A DNA stretch of 64,000 bases from Trujillonella endophytica (GTDB taxonomy: Bacteria > Actinomycetota > Actinomycetes > Mycobacteriales > Geodermatophilaceae): positions 32,785 through 96,784 of the forward strand of contig NZ_FOEE01000016.1 of NCBI RefSeq assembly GCF_900110555.1, read 5' to 3'. The translations under genes and the position numbers were made by a program. The notes under the pieces were generated by a model. The model was not told the origin of the DNA, did no database searches, and was given only the letters and a program-made list of their open reading frames with translations. Shown in pieces: positions 6,857 through 37,449 of this stretch; the first letter of the stretch is position 1; every line of letters begins with the position of its first letter.

Positions 6857-9800
6857 GTGAAGACCTGGCTCGACGCCTGGCCGGTGTTCCGGCAGCTCAC
6901 CGGTCCCGATCCGCTCGGCCGGGGCCGGGCCGCGCGCAGCAGGGGGACCGAGGCGGTGGTCAGCCGCACCGCGACCGCCGACCGGGTGGCGGCCAGCGTG
7001 TGCCCCTACTGCGCCGTCGGCTGCGCGCAGAAGGTGTACGTCGAGAACGAGCGGATCACCCAGATCGAGGGCGATCCGGACTCGCCGATCAGCCGCGGCC
7101 GGCTGTGCCCCAAGGGCAGCGCGAGCAAGCAGCTGGTGACCAGCCCGACCCGGGTCACGAAGGTCCGCTACCGCCGTCCGTACGGCACGGAGTGGGAGGA
7201 CCTGGACCTCGACACGGCGATGGAGATGATCGCCGACCGCGTGCTGGAGGCGCGGCGCAAGGGGTGGCAGGAGGTCGACGGGCCGCCGGAGAACCGGCAC
7301 CGCGTCAACCGCACCATGGGCGTAGCGAGCCTCGGAGGGGCGACCCTCGACAACGAGGAGAACTACCTCATGAAGAAGCTCTACAGCGCCCTGGGCGCGA
7401 TCCAGATCGAGAACCAGGCGCGCATATAGCACTCCTCCACGGTGCCCGGTCTGGGTGCCTCGTTCGGTCGTGGCGGTGCCACGAACTTCCTGGAGGACCT
7501 GGCGAACTCCGACTGCATCGTCATCGAGGGTTCGAACATGGCCGAGTGCCACCCGGTGGGCTTCCAGTGGGTGATGGAGGCCAAGGCGCGCGGCGCGAAG
7601 GTCGTGCACATCGACCCCCGGTTCACCCGGACCAGCGCGGTCGCCGACCTGCACGTGCCGCTGCGCGTCGGCACCGACATCGCCTTCCTCGGCGGGCTGA
7701 TCCGCTACGTGCTGGACAACGACCTGTACTTCCGCGAGTACGTCGTCGCCTACACCAACGCCGCGGCGATCGTGGGTGAGGAGTTCGTCGACACCGAGGA
7801 TCTCGGCGGGCTGTTCTCCGGCTTCGACCCGGAGACCCGCACCTACGACGAGGCGAGCTGGTCCTACGAGCCGAGCGGGCAGGACTCCCGCACCGACGAC
7901 CCCGGCGAGGCCGCGGAGCAGGAGCGATCCGAGCAGCACCCCGACGTCAAGCACTCCGACCGGGCACAGGCGGCCGGCAGCGGCGGCCCGCCGATCCCCA
8001 GCAAGCCGCACCGCGACGAGACCCTCGAGCACCCGCGCACGGTGTTCCAGATCCTCAAGCGGCACTTCGCCCGCTACACCCCGGAGATGGTCGCCGAGGT
8101 GTGCGGCATCGAACCCGAGGTGTTCGAGCAGGTCGCCCGCTGGGTCACCGAGAACAGCAACCGCGACCGGACGACGGCGTGGGTCTACTCGGTCGGCTGG
8201 ACCCAGCACAGCGTCGGCGCGCAGTACATCCGCACCGCGTCGATCCTGCAGACCCTGCTGGGCAACATCGGCCGGCCCGGCGGCGGGATCATGGCGCTGC
8301 GCGGGCACGCGAGCATCCAGGGCTCCACCGACGTCCCGACGCTGTTCAACCTGCTGCCGGGCTACCTGCCGATGCCGCACGCCATGCAGCACCAGACGCT
8401 CGACGAGTACTGCGCCGACGCGGCCGGCAAGGGCGGGTTCTGGGGCAACAAGCGCGCCTACACGGTCAGCCTCCTCAAGGCCTGGTTCGGCGACGCCGCG
8501 CAGCCGGAGAACGACTTCCGGTTCGACTGGATCCCCAAGATCAACGGTGACCACAGCTCCTACCGGACGATCGCCGACATGATCGAGGGGAAGGTGCACG
8601 GCTACTTCCTCGTCGGCGAGAACCCGACCGTCGGGCACCCCAACGGGCGGATGAACCGCTTCGGCCTGGCCAACCTGGACTGGCTCGTCGTCCGCGACCT
8701 GCAGATGATCGAGTCGGCGACCTTCTGGAACGAGTCGCCGGAGATCGAGACCGGGGAGCTCGCGCCGGAGACGATCGGCACCGAGGTGTTCTTCCTACCC
8801 GCCGCCTCGCACGTGGAGAAGGAGGGCACGTTCACCCAGACGCAGCGGCTGCTGCAGTGGCGGCAGAAGGCCGTCGAGCCGCCGGGGGACGCCCGCAGCG
8901 ACCTGTGGTTCTACTTCCACCTCGGGCGGATCCTGCGCTCCCGGCTGGCGGACTCGACCGACCCCCGCGACCAGGCGCTGCTGCACATGACCTGGGACTA
9001 CCCGGTGCACGGGGAGACCCGGGACCCCGACGCCGAGGCGGTGCTGCGCGAGATCAACGGCACCGGCCCCGACGGGCGGGCGCTGTCGACCTACGTGGAC
9101 ATGGCCGACGACGGCTCCACCTCCGGCGGCTGCTGGATCTACACCGGGGTCTTCGCCGACGAGGTCAACCAGGCGGCCCGCCGCACGCCGGCCCGCGAGC
9201 CGGGGGCCGTCGCCTCCGAGTGGGGCTGGGCGTGGCCGCTCAACCGCCGGATGCTCTACAACCGCGCGTCGGCCGATCCCGAGGGCAGGCCGTGGAGCGA
9301 GCGGAAGAAGTACGTGTACTGGGACTCCGCCGCCGGGGAGTGGACCGGCGCGGACGTGCCGGACGTCGAGAGGACCAAGCGGCCGGACTACGTGCCGCCG
9401 GAGGGCGCCAGCGCGCAGGACGCGCTGGCCGGCACCGATCCGTTCGTCATGCAGGGCGACGGCAAGGCGTGGTTGTACGCGCCGGCCGGGCTGGTCGACG
9501 GGCCGCTGCCGACGCACTACGAGCCGGTGGAGTCCGTCGTCGAGAACGCCCTCTACGCCCAGCAGGCGAGCCCGACGGTGGAGCGCATCGAGGGGCCGTG
9601 GAACCGGGAGAACCCGTCGATGAGCGAGGTCTTCCCGTTCCAGGTGACCACCTACCGGCTGACCGAGCACCACACCGCCGGCGGGATGAGCCGCACGCTG
9701 CCCTACCTGGCGGAGCTGCAGCCGGAGTTCTTCGTCGAGGTCAGCCCGGAGCTGGCCGCGCTGCGCGGGCTGACCCACGGCGACTACGCGACGCTGGTCA

Positions 9801-10156
9801 GCACCCGGACGGCGATCGAGGCGAAGGTGCTGGTCACCGAGCGGGTCCGGCCGATCCGGCTGCGCGGCGGGCAGGTCGTGCACCAGATCGGCATGCCCTA
9901 CCACTGGGCCTACAGCGGGCTGTCCACCGGCGACTCGGCCAACGACCTGCTGGGGATCGCGCTCGACGCGAACACCCACATCCAGGAGGACAAGGTCAGC
10001 ACCGCCGACATCGTCCCCGGCCGGCGCCCGCGCGGGCCGGAACTGCTGGAGTTCGTGGAGTCCTACCGGCGGCGGGCCGGCGTGGGCTCGGGGCGGGTCG
10101 GGGTGAACGGCCGCGCGCCGGTCGCGGAGGGGGACGGCGATGATCAGGTCACCTGA
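6857..10156 (+). CDS. fdnG: formate dehydrogenase alpha subunit, selenocysteine encoded by in-frame TAG
   Basis: The 1099-residue molybdopterin enzyme oxidises formate to CO2. Cys49, Cys52, Cys56 and Cys84 bind a 4Fe-4S cluster. At codon 191 the FDH-N context NQARI-U-H appears as NQARI, TAG, HSSTVPGLG. The frame is unchanged across the TAG and homology is continuous, including WTQHSVGAQ, LRGHASIQG and the C-terminal dinucleotide-binding-like domain (MPYHWAYSG). So TAG is read as selenocysteine, not stop (see the SECIS at 7441). An Asp/Glu/Gln-rich insert of about 45 residues lies near residues 345-390. No Tat signal is visible, unlike E. coli FdnG. The GTG start at 6857 begins the conserved head (TWLDAWPVFRQLTG). 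Automated calling would give two fragments, 6857-7429 and 7442-10156. Confidence 0.93.
7427..7429 (+). other. UAG selenocysteine codon (Sec191 of formate dehydrogenase)
   Basis: This amber codon stands exactly where E. coli FdnG and FdhF carry UGA-encoded selenocysteine: the preceding residues are QIENQARI and the next is His. Other genes here end in TAG (for example 450-452 and 16811-16813), so UAG is still a normal stop outside this context. The decoding tRNA and SelB are not in the window. Confidence 0.9.
7441..7459 (+). promoter_or_regulatory. bacterial SECIS hairpin
   Basis: Exactly 11 nt after the TAG, GGTGCCC (7441-7447) pairs with GGGTGCC (7453-7459), including two G-U pairs, around the apical loop GGTCT. 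In E. coli fdhF the SECIS stem also begins 11 nt after the Sec codon and its loop carries the SelB-binding GGUCU. The identical loop and spacing strongly support selenocysteine insertion at the UAG. Confidence 0.92.
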
Positions 10157-10288
10157 TCCCGGCGCTACCTCCCTCACGGTGCGCGGCGAGGGAGGACGCG
10201 CTGCGGTGAGGGAGGACGGCGCCCGGTGCGACGGCGCCCCGTGGCGCGGCGCCACGAGCGGGACCACGACCCCGGGAGGGAGGCCGGC

Positions 10289-11299
10289 ATGACCTCGATC
10301 AGCTCGGCGAGCCCGGCCTTCACCGGCAAGGACCCGCACAACCGCCTCTTCGGCCCGCTGCCCGACGTCACGGCCGAGGCCGGCTACGACGAGGACCACC
10401 CGGCGCGCGTCGGGTTCTTCACCGACACCTCGGTGTGCATCGGCTGCAAGGCCTGCGAGGTCGCCTGCAAGGAGTGGAACACGCTCCCGATGGACGACTC
10501 GCACGGCACCCGCGACGTCATCGGCCTGTCGGGGATGTCCTACGACAACACCGGCCAGCTGGGCGCGAACAGCTGGCGGCACGTGGCCTTCATCGAGCAG
10601 GTGCGCACGGTCGACCTGCCGATGCCTACCGTCGGGCGGCCCGGCGACGACCCCCGGGGCAGCGTGCTCAACGCCGAGGCGCTCACCGAGTTCGACCCGC
10701 AGACCGGGCAGAGCGGCACCGACAAGCAGGTCCGCTGGCTGATGTCGTCGGACGTCTGCAAGCACTGCACGCACGCCGGCTGCCTCGACGTCTGCCCGAC
10801 CGGAGCGCTCTTCCGCTCCGAGTTCGGCACGGTCGTCGTCCAGGGCGACATCTGCAACGGTTGCGGCTACTGCGTCTCCGCCTGCCCGTACGGCGTGATC
10901 AACCGCCGGGAGGACGACGGCCGGGTCTTCAAGTGCACGATGTGCTACGACCGGCTCACCGACGGGCTGATGCCGGCCTGCGCCACCGCCTGCCCCACCC
11001 AGTCGATCCAGTTCGGCGACCTCGACGAGCTCCAGGCCCGCGCCGACGCCCGCCTGGCCACGCTCAAGGAGCAGGGCGTGGAGACCGCGCGGCTCTACGG
11101 CCGGGACGAGGACGACGGGGTCGGCGGCAACGGCGCCTTCTTCCTGCTGCTCGACGAGCCCGAGGTGTACGGCCTGCCCCCGGATCCGGTCGTGACCACC
11201 CGCGACCTGCCGGCGATGTGGAAGGCCGCGGGCAAGGCGGCGCTGATGATCGTGGGTGTCGCCGCGACCGCGGTGTTCGGCTCGAGGCGCCCCCGATGA
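10289..11299 (+). CDS. fdnH: formate dehydrogenase beta subunit, four-cluster iron-sulfur protein
   Basis: 336 residues that would carry electrons from the alpha subunit to the membrane subunit. Four Cys clusters are visible: CIGCKACEVACKEW starting at Cys50, CKHCTHAGCLDVCP, CNGCGYCVSACPYG, and CTMCYDRLTDGLMPACATACP. This is the pattern of FdnH/FdoH-type proteins with four 4Fe-4S clusters. The C-terminus has one hydrophobic helix (AALMIVGVAATAVFG) before a basic end, like the FdnH membrane anchor. The ATG at 10289 follows a strong GGGAGGGAGG site. It is in an operon between alpha and the NrfD-like gamma. A DEDDGVGGNGAFFLLLDEPEVYGL segment is family-typical. Confidence 0.93.
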   Translation: MTSISSASPAFTGKDPHNRLFGPLPDVTAEAGYDEDHPARVGFFTDTSVCIGCKACEVACKEWNTLPMDDSHGTRDVIGLSGMSYDNTGQLGANSWRHVAFIEQVRTVDLPMPTVGRPGDDPRGSVLNAEALTEFDPQTGQSGTDKQVRWLMSSDVCKHCTHAGCLDVCPTGALFRSEFGTVVVQGDICNGCGYCVSACPYGVINRREDDGRVFKCTMCYDRLTDGLMPACATACPTQSIQFGDLDELQARADARLATLKEQGVETARLYGRDEDDGVGGNGAFFLLLDEPEVYGLPPDPVVTTRDLPAMWKAAGKAALMIVGVAATAVFGSRRPR

Positions 11300-11348
11300 C
11301 GGAGCGGGTGTGCACTTCCGCGGACGTGCACGAAGGGGAGGGGGCGCG

Positions 11349-12389
11349 GTGACCGAGGGGATCGCGACCCCGGGAGGCGGCTGGCGGCGGGCCGACGGCG
11401 GTCAGGCCGCGCAGCCCCGGACGAAGCGCCGCAAGGGTGGACGGCGGGGCGGCCGCGGCGAGATCGCCATGGTGGACGACGTCGAGTTCACCTCCTACTA
11501 CGGGCGGCCGATCCTCAAGGCCCCGGTGTGGAAGTCCCCCGACGTCCCGCTGTACCTGTTCCTCGGCGGCGCGGCGGGGTCGTCGTCCATCCTGGCGGCC
11601 CTGGCCGACGTCACCGGGCGCCCGGCGCTCACCCGGGTGGGCCGCTACGTCTCCGGCGGCGGCGCGCTGGCCTCGGTCGTCTTCCTCATCCACGACCTCG
11701 GCCGCCCGGCGCGGTTCCTGCACATGCTGCGGGTGTTCAAGCCGACCTCGCCGCTGTCGGTGGGCACCTACATCCTCGCGCCGTTCAGCGCCGCGGCCTC
11801 GACGACCGCGGCCGTGGAGCTGCTGGGGTGGTTCCCGGGGCTGAAGCGCTTCGGCGGGGTGGTGGCCGCGCTGTTCGGCGGGCCGCTGGCGACCTACACC
11901 GGCGTCCTGCTGGCCAACACCGCCGTCCCGACCTGGCACGCGGCGCACACCCAGCTACCGTTCGTGTTCGGGGCCTCGGGCATGGCGGCCGGCGGCGGCC
12001 TCTGCATGGTGTTCACCCCGCTCGCCGAGTCCGAGCCGGCTCGGCGGATGGCGATCGCGGGAGCGGCGATCGAACTGGCCGTCGTCCGCCGGGTGGAGGG
12101 CAGCGACTCGATCGTCGCCGAGCCCTACCACCTGGGCCGGCCGGGCGTGCTGATGCGGGCGGCCAGGGCGTGCACCGCCTCGGGGCTGGGGCTGGCCCTG
12201 CTGGGCGGCCGCACCCGTGCCGGCGCCGTCGGCTCGGGGCTGCTGCTGGCGGCGGGCTCGCTGCTGACCCGGTTCGGCGTCTTCGAGGCGGGTGTGGCCA
12301 GCGCGAAGGACCCGAAGTACGTCGTCGTCCCGCAGCGGGAGCGGTTGGCGGCGCGGGCGCACGAGCACGCCTCGACGATCACCCGCTGA
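11349..12389 (+). CDS. nrfD: NrfD/PsrC-type membrane subunit of formate dehydrogenase
   Basis: 346 residues, with a basic N-terminus of about 45 residues and then roughly eight hydrophobic segments. The family motif FLGGAAGSSSILAA and the LIHDLGRPARFLHMLRVFKPTSPLSVG block are typical of NrfD/PsrC quinone-site subunits, not of the cytochrome b556 FdnI. It is therefore the quinone-reactive anchor and no haem ligand set is expected. The GTG at 11349 follows AAGGGGAGGGGG. It lies 49 bp after the beta gene and closes the operon. Inferred role: passing formate electrons to menaquinone. Confidence 0.88.
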   Translation: MTEGIATPGGGWRRADGGQAAQPRTKRRKGGRRGGRGEIAMVDDVEFTSYYGRPILKAPVWKSPDVPLYLFLGGAAGSSSILAALADVTGRPALTRVGRYVSGGGALASVVFLIHDLGRPARFLHMLRVFKPTSPLSVGTYILAPFSAAASTTAAVELLGWFPGLKRFGGVVAALFGGPLATYTGVLLANTAVPTWHAAHTQLPFVFGASGMAAGGGLCMVFTPLAESEPARRMAIAGAAIELAVVRRVEGSDSIVAEPYHLGRPGVLMRAARACTASGLGLALLGGRTRAGAVGSGLLLAAGSLLTRFGVFEAGVASAKDPKYVVVPQRERLAARAHEHASTITR

Positions 12390-14428: not shown

Positions 14429-14620
14429 GCGGCACCTTCCGTCGATCGGCGCACGTCCGGCCGTGCGTCCCGAGGAGACTAGTGGGACAGGACGTGCACT
14501 CCCGCCCTCGGGCGGGGCCCGACACCCATCAGAGCGACGTGGCGCACGTCTCGCGTGGGTATCGTGCGAGGTCGCGCGACCGCAGCCGGCGTCCACTGGT
14601 ACTCGGGGGTTCCCTCGCCG

Positions 14621-16813
14621 ATGGCGACAGACACACGCGCGGCCCTTCCGGCCGCGGTGCCGTCGGGTCCCCCCGCGTCCGCGTTACCGCGCGACGGGGC
14701 CTCCCACGTCCGCGGGGACATCGAGGGGCTGCGGGCGGTCGCCGTCCTCCTGGTGATCGGCGACCACCTGCTGGGCTGGCCGCACGGCGGCTTCGTCGGC
14801 GTCGACGTCTTCTTCGTGATCTCCGGCTTCCTGATCACCGGGCTGCTGCTGCGGGAGCACCGCACCTCGGGGCGGATCTCGTTCGTCGACTTCTACAAGC
14901 GCCGCATCCGGCGGATCCTCCCGGCGTCGCTGCTGGTGCTCGTCGCCACCGTGGTCGCCGCGCACGCCGTCTTCTTCGGCAGCCGGGCGCGCACCACCTC
15001 CGACGACGCGCTGTGGTCGCTGCTGTTCGCCGGCAACTGGCGGTTCGCCCTCAACGGGACCGACTACCTGCAGGCCGGTGGCCCGCTCTCGCCGCTGCAG
15101 CACTACTGGTCGCTCGCGGTCGAGGAGCAGTTCTACGTCGTCTGGCCCGTCGTCCTGGCGGTGGTCCTGGGCATCGCGGGGTGGCGCCGCAAGCACGGCC
15201 CCAAGGGCCTGGTGGGGATCGCCGTCGTCGCGGTCGGAGTCGTCGTCGGCGGGTACGCGTGGGCGCTGCACGAGACGACCACCGACCCGACGTGGGCCTA
15301 CTTCTCCACGTTCTCCCGCGCGTGGGAGCTCGGGTTGGGCGCGCTGCTGGCCGTGGCGGTGCCCGCGGTCGCCCGCATCCCCGCACGGCTGCGCCCGCTG
15401 CTCGGCTGGGTGGGGCTGGCCGGGATCGTCGCCAGCGCGTTCGTCATCGGCCCGGACACGCCGTTCCCCGCGCCCGGCGCCCTGCTGCCCGTGCTCAGCA
15501 CCGGCCTCGTGATCGCCGCCGGCACGGGCGGTCCGTCGCACGTCCTCGCGCTCGACAACCCGCTCGCCCGCTACCTCGGCGCGCTGTCCTACTCGCTGTA
15601 CCTCTGGCACTTCCCGGCGATCGTCGTGCTGGCGGTGCTGCTGCCGGTCGACGGCACCTACTACGCGCTGGTGGCCGCCCTCACCGTGGTGGTCTCGATG
15701 GCCAGCTACCACCTGGTCGAGCAGCCGATCCGCCGGTCGGACTGGCTGCGGCCCGGGGTGGTGCGCAAGCGGGAGCGCCGCGTCGCGCTGATCGGCGGCT
15801 GGGTGGCCACCGCGGCGGCCGCGGCGCTGACCGTCGTCCTCGTCGTCCTCCCGGCGACCGGGTCGGGCTGGCCGTGGGCGTCGGCGAGCGAGCCGGCGGC
15901 GGCACCCCCGCCCGTCTCGGTCGACGATCCGCTGCCGGCCGCGCCGTCGGTGGACCACGCCGCCGTCCTGGCGGGCGAGATCTCGGCCGCCGTCACGACG
16001 CCGGAGTGGCCCGAGCTCGTGCCGGGGCTGGACTCCACGTCGGAGGAGGTCTACGTCCCGGAGTGGGTGGTGGACGACTGCCTCAACATCCGGTCCGCGG
16101 CCGACGCCGCCGGCTGCGTGTACGGCGATCCGGCCGCCGAGCGGACCGCCGTCCTGCTCGGTGACTCCGTCAGCATCAGTTGGATGCCGGGCATCCGGCG
16201 CGCGCTGGAGTCCGATGGCTGGCAGATCCGGGTGCTCACGCTCGGCCAGTGCCCGCAGGCGATGGTGCCGACGGAGATGGACCGCGGCGACCCGGCGTTC
16301 CCCGAGTACTGCTCGGCGCACCAGGAGTGGGCGCTGGCGCAGGTGCAGGAGCTCCGGCCGGACCTCGTGATCATGTCCTCGGCGGCCAACTCGATCGGGC
16401 GGATGGTCTCCGAGGCCGAGGGGGACGCGGCGCTGGCCGAGTGGCGCGACGGGCTCATCGCGACGATGACCGCGCTCGACGGTTTGCAGGCGCGGTTCGT
16501 GCTGCTCGGTTCCCCGCCGCCGGGGTTGAACATCCAGACGTGCGCGACGCGCTTCAACACCCCGCAGGACTGCCTGAGCACGATCGCCGACGACGTGACC
16601 GACTTCCTCGAGAACGAGGCCGACACCGTCCGGGCGTTCCGGGGCACGACGCTGCAGGCCAGCTACGTGGACACCCGGTCGTGGTTCTGCGACGCGCAGG
16701 AGCAGTGCCCGCTGTTCGTCGGGACGACGCCGGTGTTCGCCGACGGCACCCACATGACGGCCGCGTACTCCGCGCGGCTGGCCCCGGTGCTCGCGCCCGT
16801 GCTGGCGGGGTAG
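14621..16813 (+). CDS. OafA-type membrane acyltransferase fused to SGNH domain
   Basis: 730 residues. The N-terminal acyltransferase-3 domain (about residues 25-385, ten or so membrane segments) has [15 protein letters not shown], the catalytic-type [43 protein letters not shown] and [17 protein letters not shown] Pro/Ala-rich linker leads to a C-terminal SGNH domain: [12 protein letters not shown] (block I), SSAANSIGR, and a terminal DGTHMT that gives the Asp/His. Such proteins O-acetylate surface glycans. The chosen ATG at 14621 begins just before the conserved head, though upstream codons are open to 14555. A paralogue lies at 56014. Confidence 0.9.
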
Positions 16814-34769: not shown

Positions 34770-36263
34770 GTGGAACTGAGGGAACTCGGGCTCGTACTGC
34801 GCCGCGGCTGGTGGCTGATCCTGGCCGGCATCGTGCTCGGCGTGGGCGGTGGTGGCGCCATCTGCTTCCTCATGACGCCGACCTACGAGTCGACCACCCA
34901 GTTCTTCGTGGCGACGCCGAACTCGACGGACAGCAACAACAACTCCGCGCTCCAGGGCGGCGTGTTCTCCCAGCAGCGGGCGCAGTCCTACACCCGGCTG
35001 CTCTCCGGCCCGGACATGACCAGCCGCGTCATCGACCGCCTCGGCCTGCCGATGAGCAACGAGGACCTCGCGGAGAACATCGAGGCCACCGCCGACCTGC
35101 AGTCGGTGCTCATCGACGTCACGGTCACCGACGAGTCCGCCACCCGCGCGCAGGCGATCGCCGAGACGATCGGTCTGGAGTTCCCCGACCTCGTGGAGGA
35201 GCTGGAGACCGCCGGGCGTCCCGAGCTGAGCGCCCCGGTCGCCGTGCTGGTCACCGGCCAGCCGGAGGTCTCCGACGAGTGGGCCTCGCCCCAGGTGCTG
35301 CTCATCCTGCTGATCGGCGCGGGCGTCGGCCTCGTGCTCGGCTTCGGTGCGGCCATCGCCCGGGGCCAGCTGGACCGGTCGGTGAAGGACCCGGCCGAGG
35401 CCGGCGAGCTGGGCGGCGCCGCCGTCATCGGCACGATCGTCCGCGACGCGTCGCTGTCGAAGCGGCACGTGCTCGCCGAGGACCTCCGCAGCGCCACCGG
35501 CGAGAGCTTCCGGCAGCTGCGCAACAACCTGCAGTTCCTGAGCGTCGACGAGCCGCCGAAGGTCATCATGATCTCCAGCTCGCTGCCGTCGGAGGGCAAG
35601 ACCACCACGGCGATCAACCTCGGTCTCGCGCTCGCCCGGGCCGGCCGGAAGGTCGTCATCGTGGACGCCGACCTGCGCGCCCCGCGGGTGTCGTCCTACC
35701 TGGACCTCGTCGAGGGCGCCGGCGTGACCAGCGTCCTCTCCGGCGCGGCCGAGCTCGAGGACGTCCTGCAGCGGTACGGCGACGCGGACGGCGAGTGCGC
35801 CGTGCTCGCCGCCGGCCCCACCCCGCCCAACCCGAGCGAGCTCCTGGCCTCGGGCAACATGGGCGCGATGCTGGGCACGCTCCGCGACGCCTACGACTAC
35901 GTGATCGTCGACTCGGCGCCGCTGCTCGCCGCCGCGGACTCCACCGGCCTCGCCACCCACGCCGACGGCGTCCTGCTCACCGTGCAGTTCGGCCGGACCC
36001 GCAAGGACGAACTGCGCCGGGCGGTCGACGCTCTGCAGCGGGTCGGCGGGCGCGTGCTCGGCATCGTGTTCAACAGCGTGCCGCCGCGATCGGACCTGGT
36101 GAAGTCGTTCGGCTACGCCTACGGCTACGGCGCCACCGCCGGCGACAAGAAGTCGAAGAAGGCGAAGAAGCACGCGAAGGCGGACACGGACCGGAAGGCG
36201 GACACGGCCGCGCCGGCCTCCGAGCCGAGCGACCGGGCGCCCGAGACCGCCGACGTCGGCTAG
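34770..36263 (+). CDS. Wzz/CapA-BY-kinase fusion (polysaccharide copolymerase tyrosine autokinase), copy 1
   Basis: 497 residues. An N-terminal Wzz domain is bounded by membrane helices near residues 14-35 and 178-200. A cytoplasmic tyrosine kinase follows: Walker A SSLPSEGKTTT (about 272-282), Walker A' VDADLRAPR (about 298) and Walker B DYVIVDSAPLL (about 378). The C-terminus has the Tyr cluster FGYAYGYGA followed by a Lys/Ala-rich tail (SKKAKKHAKADTD), so phosphorylatable Tyr lie before the tail. It controls chain length and export. The GTG start has a GGGGACC upstream element and shares the VELxxLxxxxRxxWW start pattern with the copy at 54439. Confidence 0.92.
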   Translation: MELRELGLVLRRGWWLILAGIVLGVGGGGAICFLMTPTYESTTQFFVATPNSTDSNNNSALQGGVFSQQRAQSYTRLLSGPDMTSRVIDRLGLPMSNEDLAENIEATADLQSVLIDVTVTDESATRAQAIAETIGLEFPDLVEELETAGRPELSAPVAVLVTGQPEVSDEWASPQVLLILLIGAGVGLVLGFGAAIARGQLDRSVKDPAEAGELGGAAVIGTIVRDASLSKRHVLAEDLRSATGESFRQLRNNLQFLSVDEPPKVIMISSSLPSEGKTTTAINLGLALARAGRKVVIVDADLRAPRVSSYLDLVEGAGVTSVLSGAAELEDVLQRYGDADGECAVLAAGPTPPNPSELLASGNMGAMLGTLRDAYDYVIVDSAPLLAAADSTGLATHADGVLLTVQFGRTRKDELRRAVDALQRVGGRVLGIVFNSVPPRSDLVKSFGYAYGYGATAGDKKSKKAKKHAKADTDRKADTAAPASEPSDRAPETADVG

Positions 36264-36273
36264 GACGCCGGGG

Positions 36274-37449
36274 ATGGCCGCGCTGCTGCGGCGGCTCCGC
36301 TCGTCGGCTATGGCCGTCCTCGGGTGGCTAGGCATGCGGCTGCTGCCGGCCCGGCGGCTCGCGGTCGTGCACGGCTACCCCGACTCTGAGGGCAACGCGC
36401 TGCACACGCTCGCCGAGCTGACCCGGCGGTACCCCGGCCCGATCCACTGGCTGGTCGCCGACCCGGCCTCGGTGCGGCTGCTCGGGCCGCTGCGCGTCGA
36501 CCCCGCCCGCGTGACCGTCGTCCCCCGGCGGTCGGTCCGCGCGATCCGGTCGACGCTCACCGCCGAGGCCGTCTTCTTCACCCACGGCCTGGTGACGGCG
36601 GCGCGGCCGCCGCGCTCGCGCCTGGTCGTCAACCTCTGGCACGGCGACGGCCCCAAGGACACGAAGAGCGAGCACCGCGCCGGGTCGACGGTCGTCGTCT
36701 CCGGCACCGAGCTCTGGGGGCGGATGAAGGGCGCCGCCTTCGACGTCCCGTTCGAGCGGGTCGCCGTCGTCGGCAACCCGCGCGTCGCCGACCTCACCGC
36801 ACCGCTGGACCGCGCGCAGCTGCTCGCGGCGCTCGGGCTGCCCGCCGACCGGCTCCTGGTCCTGTGGATGCCGACGTACCGGGTGGGGGGCGATGAGTTC
36901 GGTCGGAGCTGGGGCGACGGCTCCGGCCTCTCCAGCAGGCTCTCCGAGGCGTTCTCGCTGCCCGACGGCGTCCAGCTGGTGGTCAAGCCCCACCCGCTCG
37001 ACCGCGACGACTACACCGGTCTGGGCGCCCGCGTGATCACCAACGCCGACCTGGCCGCCGTCGGCAGCAGTACCTACCGGCTGATGGCCGCCGCCGACGC
37101 CCTGATCAGCGACGCCTCGAGCACGTGGACCGACTACCTGGTGCTCGACCGGCCCATCGGCTTCTTCATGCCCGACCTCGGCGAGTACGGGGCCTCGCGC
37201 GGCTACAACGTGCCCGACGTCCGCGAGGTGCTGCCGGGCCCGCTGTTCGAGGACCTGGCCGGCGTCCGGGCCTTCCTGGGGGCCGTGGAGGCGGGGGAGG
37301 TGCCGCCGCCGTCCGGCCACCCCGCCGTCGCCCGGCTGGGGCTGAGCCGCAACGAGCGGCCCGCCGAGGCCCTGCTCACCTGGCTCGACGACCACCGCAC
37401 CCGCGCCGGTCGGCGGGCCCTGTTCGGGAGCGGCTCAGCGGCCCAGTAG
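36274..37449 (+). CDS. CDP-glycerol/ribitol glycerophosphotransferase-family protein (TagB/TagF-like)
   Basis: 391 residues. A short N-terminal amphipathic region is followed by a GT-B-like fold. Family signatures are VVNLWHGDGPKDTKSE, VVSGTELWG, MPTYR, QLVVKPHPLDRDD, and the C-terminal ADALISDASSTWTDYLVLDRPIGFF. Enzymes of this family transfer glycerol-phosphate or ribitol-phosphate from the CDP-polyol to a glycan or lipid. The probable CDP-ribitol synthase at 42466 makes ribitol-phosphate the more likely donor, but the sequence does not tell ribitol from glycerol. It begins 10 bp after the kinase stop. Its stop overlaps the convergent GT4 gene by 15 bp. Confidence 0.85.
   Translation: MAALLRRLRSSAMAVLGWLGMRLLPARRLAVVHGYPDSEGNALHTLAELTRRYPGPIHWLVADPASVRLLGPLRVDPARVTVVPRRSVRAIRSTLTAEAVFFTHGLVTAARPPRSRLVVNLWHGDGPKDTKSEHRAGSTVVVSGTELWGRMKGAAFDVPFERVAVVGNPRVADLTAPLDRAQLLAALGLPADRLLVLWMPTYRVGGDEFGRSWGDGSGLSSRLSEAFSLPDGVQLVVKPHPLDRDDYTGLGARVITNADLAAVGSSTYRLMAAADALISDASSTWTDYLVLDRPIGFFMPDLGEYGASRGYNVPDVREVLPGPLFEDLAGVRAFLGAVEAGEVPPPSGHPAVARLGLSRNERPAEALLTWLDDHRTRAGRRALFGSGSAAQ

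Follow-up and report, generated by a model that had tools for sequence, protein, structure and literature searches.

The use of UAG as a selenocysteine codon in Geodermatophilaceae was reportedly described by Mukai et al. in 2016. In the portion of Santesmasses et al. (2017, PMC5330540) that deals with this family, three Geodermatophilaceae genomes are said to possess a CUA tRNA-Sec, the 2016 paper is cited for formate dehydrogenase (FDH) and UGSC selenoproteins, and AhpC of Blastococcus saxobsidens is added to them; this agrees with the original prediction for the locus studied here, which had referred to an earlier report of UAG-programmed selenocysteine in Geodermatophilus and Blastococcus. 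More generally, some species use UAG, UAA or one of ten sense codons for selenocysteine according to an excerpt of another publication (PMC10778597). Since the UAG-selenocysteine FDH of Geodermatophilaceae has been in print since 2016-2017, the case presented here is one of a known kind.

The FDH gene concerned lies in a stretch of 64,000 nucleotides from Trujillonella endophytica, which is called the window in the following. If its in-frame TAG is taken as a residue, the gene is otherwise open and comprises 1,099 codons (Table 1). The read-through product scores 1891.2 bits with the formate dehydrogenase model NF041513 (cut-off 1400; residues 4-1073 covered) and 928.2 bits with TIGR01553, and it contains Mo-bis-MGD and Fe4S4 domains of Pfam. 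Homology is thus present on both sides of the TAG, as had been noted originally, and the frame is open up to the terminal TGA. Relatives in the PDB are 1h0h and 1kqf. In the alignments to these structures residue 191 stands opposite the letter X of the motifs QARIXHS (1h0h_A) and QARVXHG (1kqf_A), which is selenocysteine, and the TAG is thereby located at the selenocysteine site, just as had been proposed. The gene is followed by two further ORFs. The beta-like one matches the FDH-beta model TIGR01582 with 180.2 bits, under the cut-off of 334.7, and its true start may be an ATG further inside, at 10289. The putative NrfD-like ORF reaches just 21.6 bits with TIGR03148, far under the cut-off, and probably starts further inside than the mechanical start. 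Elsewhere, the window contains surface polysaccharide-like genes at 14555-16813 and 34770-37449 (acyltransferase-SGNH, Wzz/AAA and CDP-glycerol glycerophosphotransferase-like).

Table 1. Features of the formate dehydrogenase locus, in positions of the window
Feature	Position	Strand	Basis or remark
Formate dehydrogenase alpha subunit gene	6857..10156	+	GTG start, in-frame TAG codon 191, TGA stop 10154-10156
TAG codon 191, predicted selenocysteine codon	7427..7429	+	sequence, 1h0h_A/1kqf_A alignment, family genes
11-nt spacer, codon to hairpin	7430..7440	+	sequence
SECIS-like hairpin	7441..7459	+	7-bp stem 7441-7447/7453-7459, loop GGTCT 7448-7452
FDH beta-like Fe-S subunit	10226..11299	+	ORF from GTG 10226; TIGR01582
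Putative NrfD-like membrane subunit	11256..12389	+	mechanical ORF; assigned by place after beta gene

The GGUCU hairpin that had been described as starting 11 nt past the TAG is present (GGTGCCC-GGTCT-GGGTGCC in the DNA). This is the arrangement expected for a UAG variant of SECIS recoding, for which a hairpin that has G-U within its loop should lie about 11-20 nt past the codon. A stem of 6 or more bp that encloses an [AG]GT[CT]T loop was found at SECIS distance behind just one of the 1,403 TAG, TGA and TAA triplets on both strands of the window, namely the TAG of codon 191. The folding energy calculated from the TAG onwards, that is including the spacer, is not below that of shuffled sequences (z -0.62 over 36 nt, +0.63 over 49 nt), and that of the 19-nt hairpin alone has a z of -2.46; the energy taken by itself is weak evidence for a hairpin. 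Strong support for a real hairpin comes from covariation. We aligned the 48 nt from the TAG of 47 FDH genes of the family, including the gene from the window, which gave 35 distinct rows and 245 cells. The stem positions pair in 98.8% of these cells, with double-sided changes in three of the seven pairs (24 cells). This count of covarying cells was matched by 0 of 500 shuffles, and a shift of the partner by 1 to 3 positions lets the pairing fall to 31-61%. Pairing is kept although one site of the encoded protein is Ala in some genes and Thr or Ser in others.

The machinery that would be needed is encoded outside the window, in a genome assembly of 4.87 Mb on 34 contigs that is 99.64% complete and not closed. 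A CUA tRNA-Sec had been predicted for this genome and was indeed found there: a single tRNA-Sec fits the full length of model RF01852 with 64.2 bits (C20:270064-270155, minus strand), and its anticodon is CTA (CUA) according to ARAGORN, which labels the molecule as tRNA-Pyl because of this anticodon. Neither RF01852 nor ARAGORN detected a UCA tRNA-Sec in this genome. The six other rows found with RF01852 are three tRNA-Ser, a tRNA-Tyr, a tRNA-Leu and a tRNA-Met; one of the three tRNA-Ser, with anticodon TGA, exceeds the cut-off of the model. Downstream of the tRNA-Sec follow selA and then selB on the same strand, and selD is encoded on the opposite strand about 1 kb off. All three genes, whose presence the original prediction had proposed to check, score above the curated cut-offs of the corresponding NCBIfam models (selA 420.9 bits with TIGR00474, selB 268.4 bits with TIGR00475, selD 381.6 bits with TIGR00476), and the genome is accordingly neither one with only a UCA tRNA-Sec nor one without SelB, either of which had been named as speaking against UAG decoding. 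Among the families tried, FDH is the only one with a selenocysteine codon in this genome: the one UGSC-like row and the six AhpC-TSA rows do not contain a stop, and the AhpD-like query had no match.

Since the codon occupies the selenocysteine site and the genome possesses a matching CUA tRNA-Sec together with the helper genes, the UAG is likely read as selenocysteine. From the sequence data, we estimate a probability of roughly 95% that codon 191 is decoded in this way by the organism's own CUA tRNA-Sec. By analogy to known bacterial selenocysteine biology, SelA would convert Ser-tRNA-Sec to Sec-tRNA-Sec with selenophosphate provided by SelD, and SelB would bind both the Sec-tRNA-Sec and the GGUCU hairpin and deliver the former at the UAG. 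This delivery would compete with release factor 1, and UAG codons lacking the hairpin would still cause termination.

The family Geodermatophilaceae as a whole shows the same combination of codon and anticodon. We found 110 tRNA-Sec genes in 108 of 112 genomes, and every anticodon was read, giving 102 CTA and eight TCA. The anticodon arm is identical in all 102 CTA genes. The pair closing the anticodon loop is C-G in each of the 102 CUA genes and U-A in each of the eight UCA genes; it has changed along with the anticodon. Seven of the eight TCA genes belong to the genera g6, g7 and g8, and the eighth is a second tRNA-Sec of a Geodermatophilus genome that is discussed below. FDH rows were obtained from 101 genomes (n = 133), and all 118 that cover codon 191 contain one TAG each. 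Two of them (G009 and G029) additionally have a TGA, which was rejected as a second internal stop because it is simply where the gene ends. The TAG was read directly at the selenocysteine site in 47 of the family's FDH genes, including that of the window. Of the 95 UGSC rows of the family, 72 contain one TAG and the other 23 no stop, so that none has a TGA. When 22 of the TAG loci were inspected, the TAG was located at the U of the UGSC motif in 21, the motif search having missed the remaining one (L132).

In g7 and g8 the FDH-like genes are less closely related, and a single TGA is present in each of six rows from these genera. The four g8 FDH genes that could be read (L156-L159) have TGA at the place of the selenocysteine codon, followed by a GGTCT hairpin. 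Three of the four genomes (G073, G074 and G075) possess a UCA tRNA-Sec; no tRNA-Sec was found in the fourth (G072). A weak row from G071, a member of a UCA genus, contains a TAG off the selenocysteine site (residues 19-112, 56 bits). Three further FDH loci, all from the Klenkia-like genome G080, had been tried for the hairpin alignment and lack the stretch of TAG and hairpin. Both FDH copies of this genome (G080:C12:812340-815448 and G080:C4:95-2882; L106 and L107) are without this stretch; their frame is broken there and their left ends differ. The selenocysteine site may have been lost in G080, or the assembly may be faulty.

A search of the named species collection with the exact FDH-site pattern containing TAG resulted in 104 matching stretches, 101 of which are FDH genes. 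The hairpin is present in 100 of these, 99 with the loop GGTCT and one (L262) with AGTCT, and the stretch of the last one (L215) ends before the hairpin is covered. According to their titles, 98 of the 101 originate from Geodermatophilus, Blastococcus, Modestobacter, Klenkia, Goekera or unnamed Geodermatophilaceae. The remaining three, with 70 to 72% GC, are titled as a Marmoricola MAG, a Frankiales MAG and an unverified 'Bacillus', and these records are likely mislabelled or mixed. The three stretches outside FDH genes, from Clostridia (L178), Anammoxibacter (L256) and Holophagaceae (L260), have neither FDH context nor a GGTCT hairpin and were rejected as chance matches.

There are other ways to explain a TAG at this position. 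It might be a true stop; the gene would then be broken or give a truncated product, and its downstream part would be a relic or be translated from an internal start. TAG does serve as a normal stop at other places in the window, as had been stated in the original prediction. A crude, GC-frame-based gene pick gave 40 ORFs, which end in TGA (29), TAG (10) or TAA (1); the front part of the FDH gene is one of the ten, and seven of the nine others possess Pfam domains, which in the ORF at 14555-16813 run to four residues from its end. A mechanical ORF that begins with a GTG at 7442 also exists behind the TAG of the FDH gene. However, frame and homology go on for approximately 900 codons past the TAG, all family rows that span the site share it, the hairpin covaries and the genome has the matching tRNA-Sec, and we therefore regard termination at codon 191 as very unlikely.

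The common use of TAG as a stop codon argues at the same time against a reading in which an ordinary amber suppressor acts or pyrrolysine is inserted at the UAG, since many other genes end in TAG. The tRNA-Pyl label given by ARAGORN would fit pyrrolysine, but the tRNA is matched by the tRNA-Sec model from end to end and directly precedes selA and selB, the codon sits at the selenocysteine site of FDH, and the relatives outside the family contain TGA only in the 70 rows listed. Such a reading appears even less probable than a true stop. These TGA-containing orthologues could also point to a sequencing or assembly error for TGA, which had been raised as a possible objection to the prediction. 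Of all explanations we give least credence to this one, because the TAG recurs at the same place in the 47 family FDH genes that were read; it is also present in the 101 FDH stretches retrieved by the exact pattern, and the anticodon of the organism's own tRNA-Sec pairs with TAG and not with TGA. Selenocysteine therefore remains the preferred reading of codon 191.

A search of 397 genomes from the order, those of the family among them, gave FDH rows in 269 at an E-value of 1e-150. Among the out-of-family rows, the 70 that were listed contain TGA only, 67 with one and three with two, counted as stops within the rows. We searched 26 genomes of the order for tRNA-Sec and found 25 genes in 24 of them, 24 with a TCA anticodon (19 determined by script and five by eye). 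The remaining gene is a CUA tRNA-Sec in a genome assigned to another family (G230:C194:772-863; L302), which has a UCA tRNA-Sec as well. As the SelA piece of this CUA locus is placed inside the Geodermatophilaceae clade of the tree, the contig is likely misplaced, and we rejected it as a genuine case of a CUA tRNA-Sec in another family.

The SelA tree comprises 44 proteins; 17 of the 61 loci were left out, as they gave no match of 225 residues. The 25 proteins from CUA loci form a single clade (100/100), and the three UCA members of the family are placed outside of it. It is therefore likely that the switch from UGA to UAG took place once, which is the simplest reading of these sequences. The survey suggests an ancestor that read UGA and in whose descendants, within the family, the tRNA anticodon and the codons of the selenoproteins shifted to UAG on a single occasion. 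Because the change from UCA to CUA requires two base changes, we infer that a UUA or CCA intermediate is likely.

The second tRNA-Sec mentioned above occurs in Geodermatophilus sp. LHW52908 (G059). In this genome selA and selB are preceded by a CUA tRNA-Sec, and in addition there is a UCA tRNA-Sec (81.8 bits) on a contig of 69 kb (G059:C17; L078:1169-1263, minus strand). Beside the latter lies an AhpD-like ORF (L078:1579-2157, plus strand) with a TGA at 1870 in the context CFY-U-MESH. If read through, it matches TIGR01926 (peroxidase-related enzyme) with 112.6 bits, over the cut-off of 81.8; its match to NF041238 (AhpD-related (seleno)protein) is under the cut-off. In a scan of the whole contig for stops followed by a hairpin, this TGA was the sole match, with the loop AGTTT, and the energy of the hairpin is not lower than that of shuffled sequences (z -0.26). 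Among 396 genomes of the phylum, we found 12 rows of AhpD-like relatives in 10 genomes, each with one TGA. The motif C-x-x-TGA could be read in four of the 12 and a hairpin of this form was present in three, and one of the genomes (G540) also has a UCA tRNA-Sec within the 3.4 kb fetched. Within the family, the G059 copy is the only AhpD-like one with a stop among the rows listed.

The island carrying these two genes has 59-65% GC, compared with 74% for the contig, and genes for transposases of the IS110, IS3-like, IS30-like and IS21 types, detected by Pfam hits, are located 4 to 13 kb further in. The island lies at the end of the contig and may be a contamination. A search of plasmid records with the AhpD-like protein gave distant relatives only (best listed 33.7% identity), and no match to the UCA tRNA-Sec was obtained among phage records. 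One SelB over the cut-off was found in G059. We see about even odds, judging by the sequences, that G059 reads both UAG, by the CUA tRNA-Sec in FDH and UGSC proteins, and UGA, by the UCA tRNA-Sec of the island in the AhpD-like gene, with one SelA and one SelB. The UCA tRNA-Sec and the UGA-containing gene might have come in together on the lower-GC island, which lies next to the transposase genes. If this is true, G059 would have a natural two-codon selenocysteine code, in which gene transfer has partly undone the codon switch. With its two tRNA-Sec genes, the genome lends itself as a natural experiment on the question of whether two codons can be served by a single SelB. Our literature search did not find a genome with both CUA and UCA tRNA-Sec in print; genomes with several tRNA-Sec genes exist according to PMC5330540, and mixed anticodons are not mentioned in the part of that source concerned with them.

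With the present locus, the small number of bacteria in which UAG is known as a codon for selenocysteine grows by one genome. Moreover, the change of the codon is caught within one family, with UCA/UGA genera next to a single CUA clade and with the codons of FDH and UGSC proteins having moved along. There is also a practical side to this, as gene finders that treat TAG as a stop split such genes and ARAGORN assigns the tRNA to pyrrolysine. In comparison with the published UAG-selenocysteine system of Geodermatophilaceae, the family, the CUA tRNA-Sec and an FDH with a selenocysteine TAG are alike. The genome, however, is a different one; its two nearest relatives in our set are deposited as Blastococcus sp. 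Of the selenoproteins published for the family, FDH is the only one that carries a TAG here, the UGSC-like and AhpC-TSA rows being free of stops. With the FDH-N/FdhF enzymes of E. coli and most bacteria, which contain UGA-encoded selenocysteine and are accompanied by selABCD, the system shares the enzyme type, the selenocysteine position, the GGUCU hairpin, selA, selB and selD and a tRNA-Sec, but codon and anticodon are UAG and CUA instead of UGA and UCA. The UAG codon and the CUA anticodon are common to pyrrolysine coding as well; in contrast to the latter, the tRNA described here fits tRNA-Sec, has selA and selB as neighbours, and its predicted reading of UAG is tied to a hairpin.
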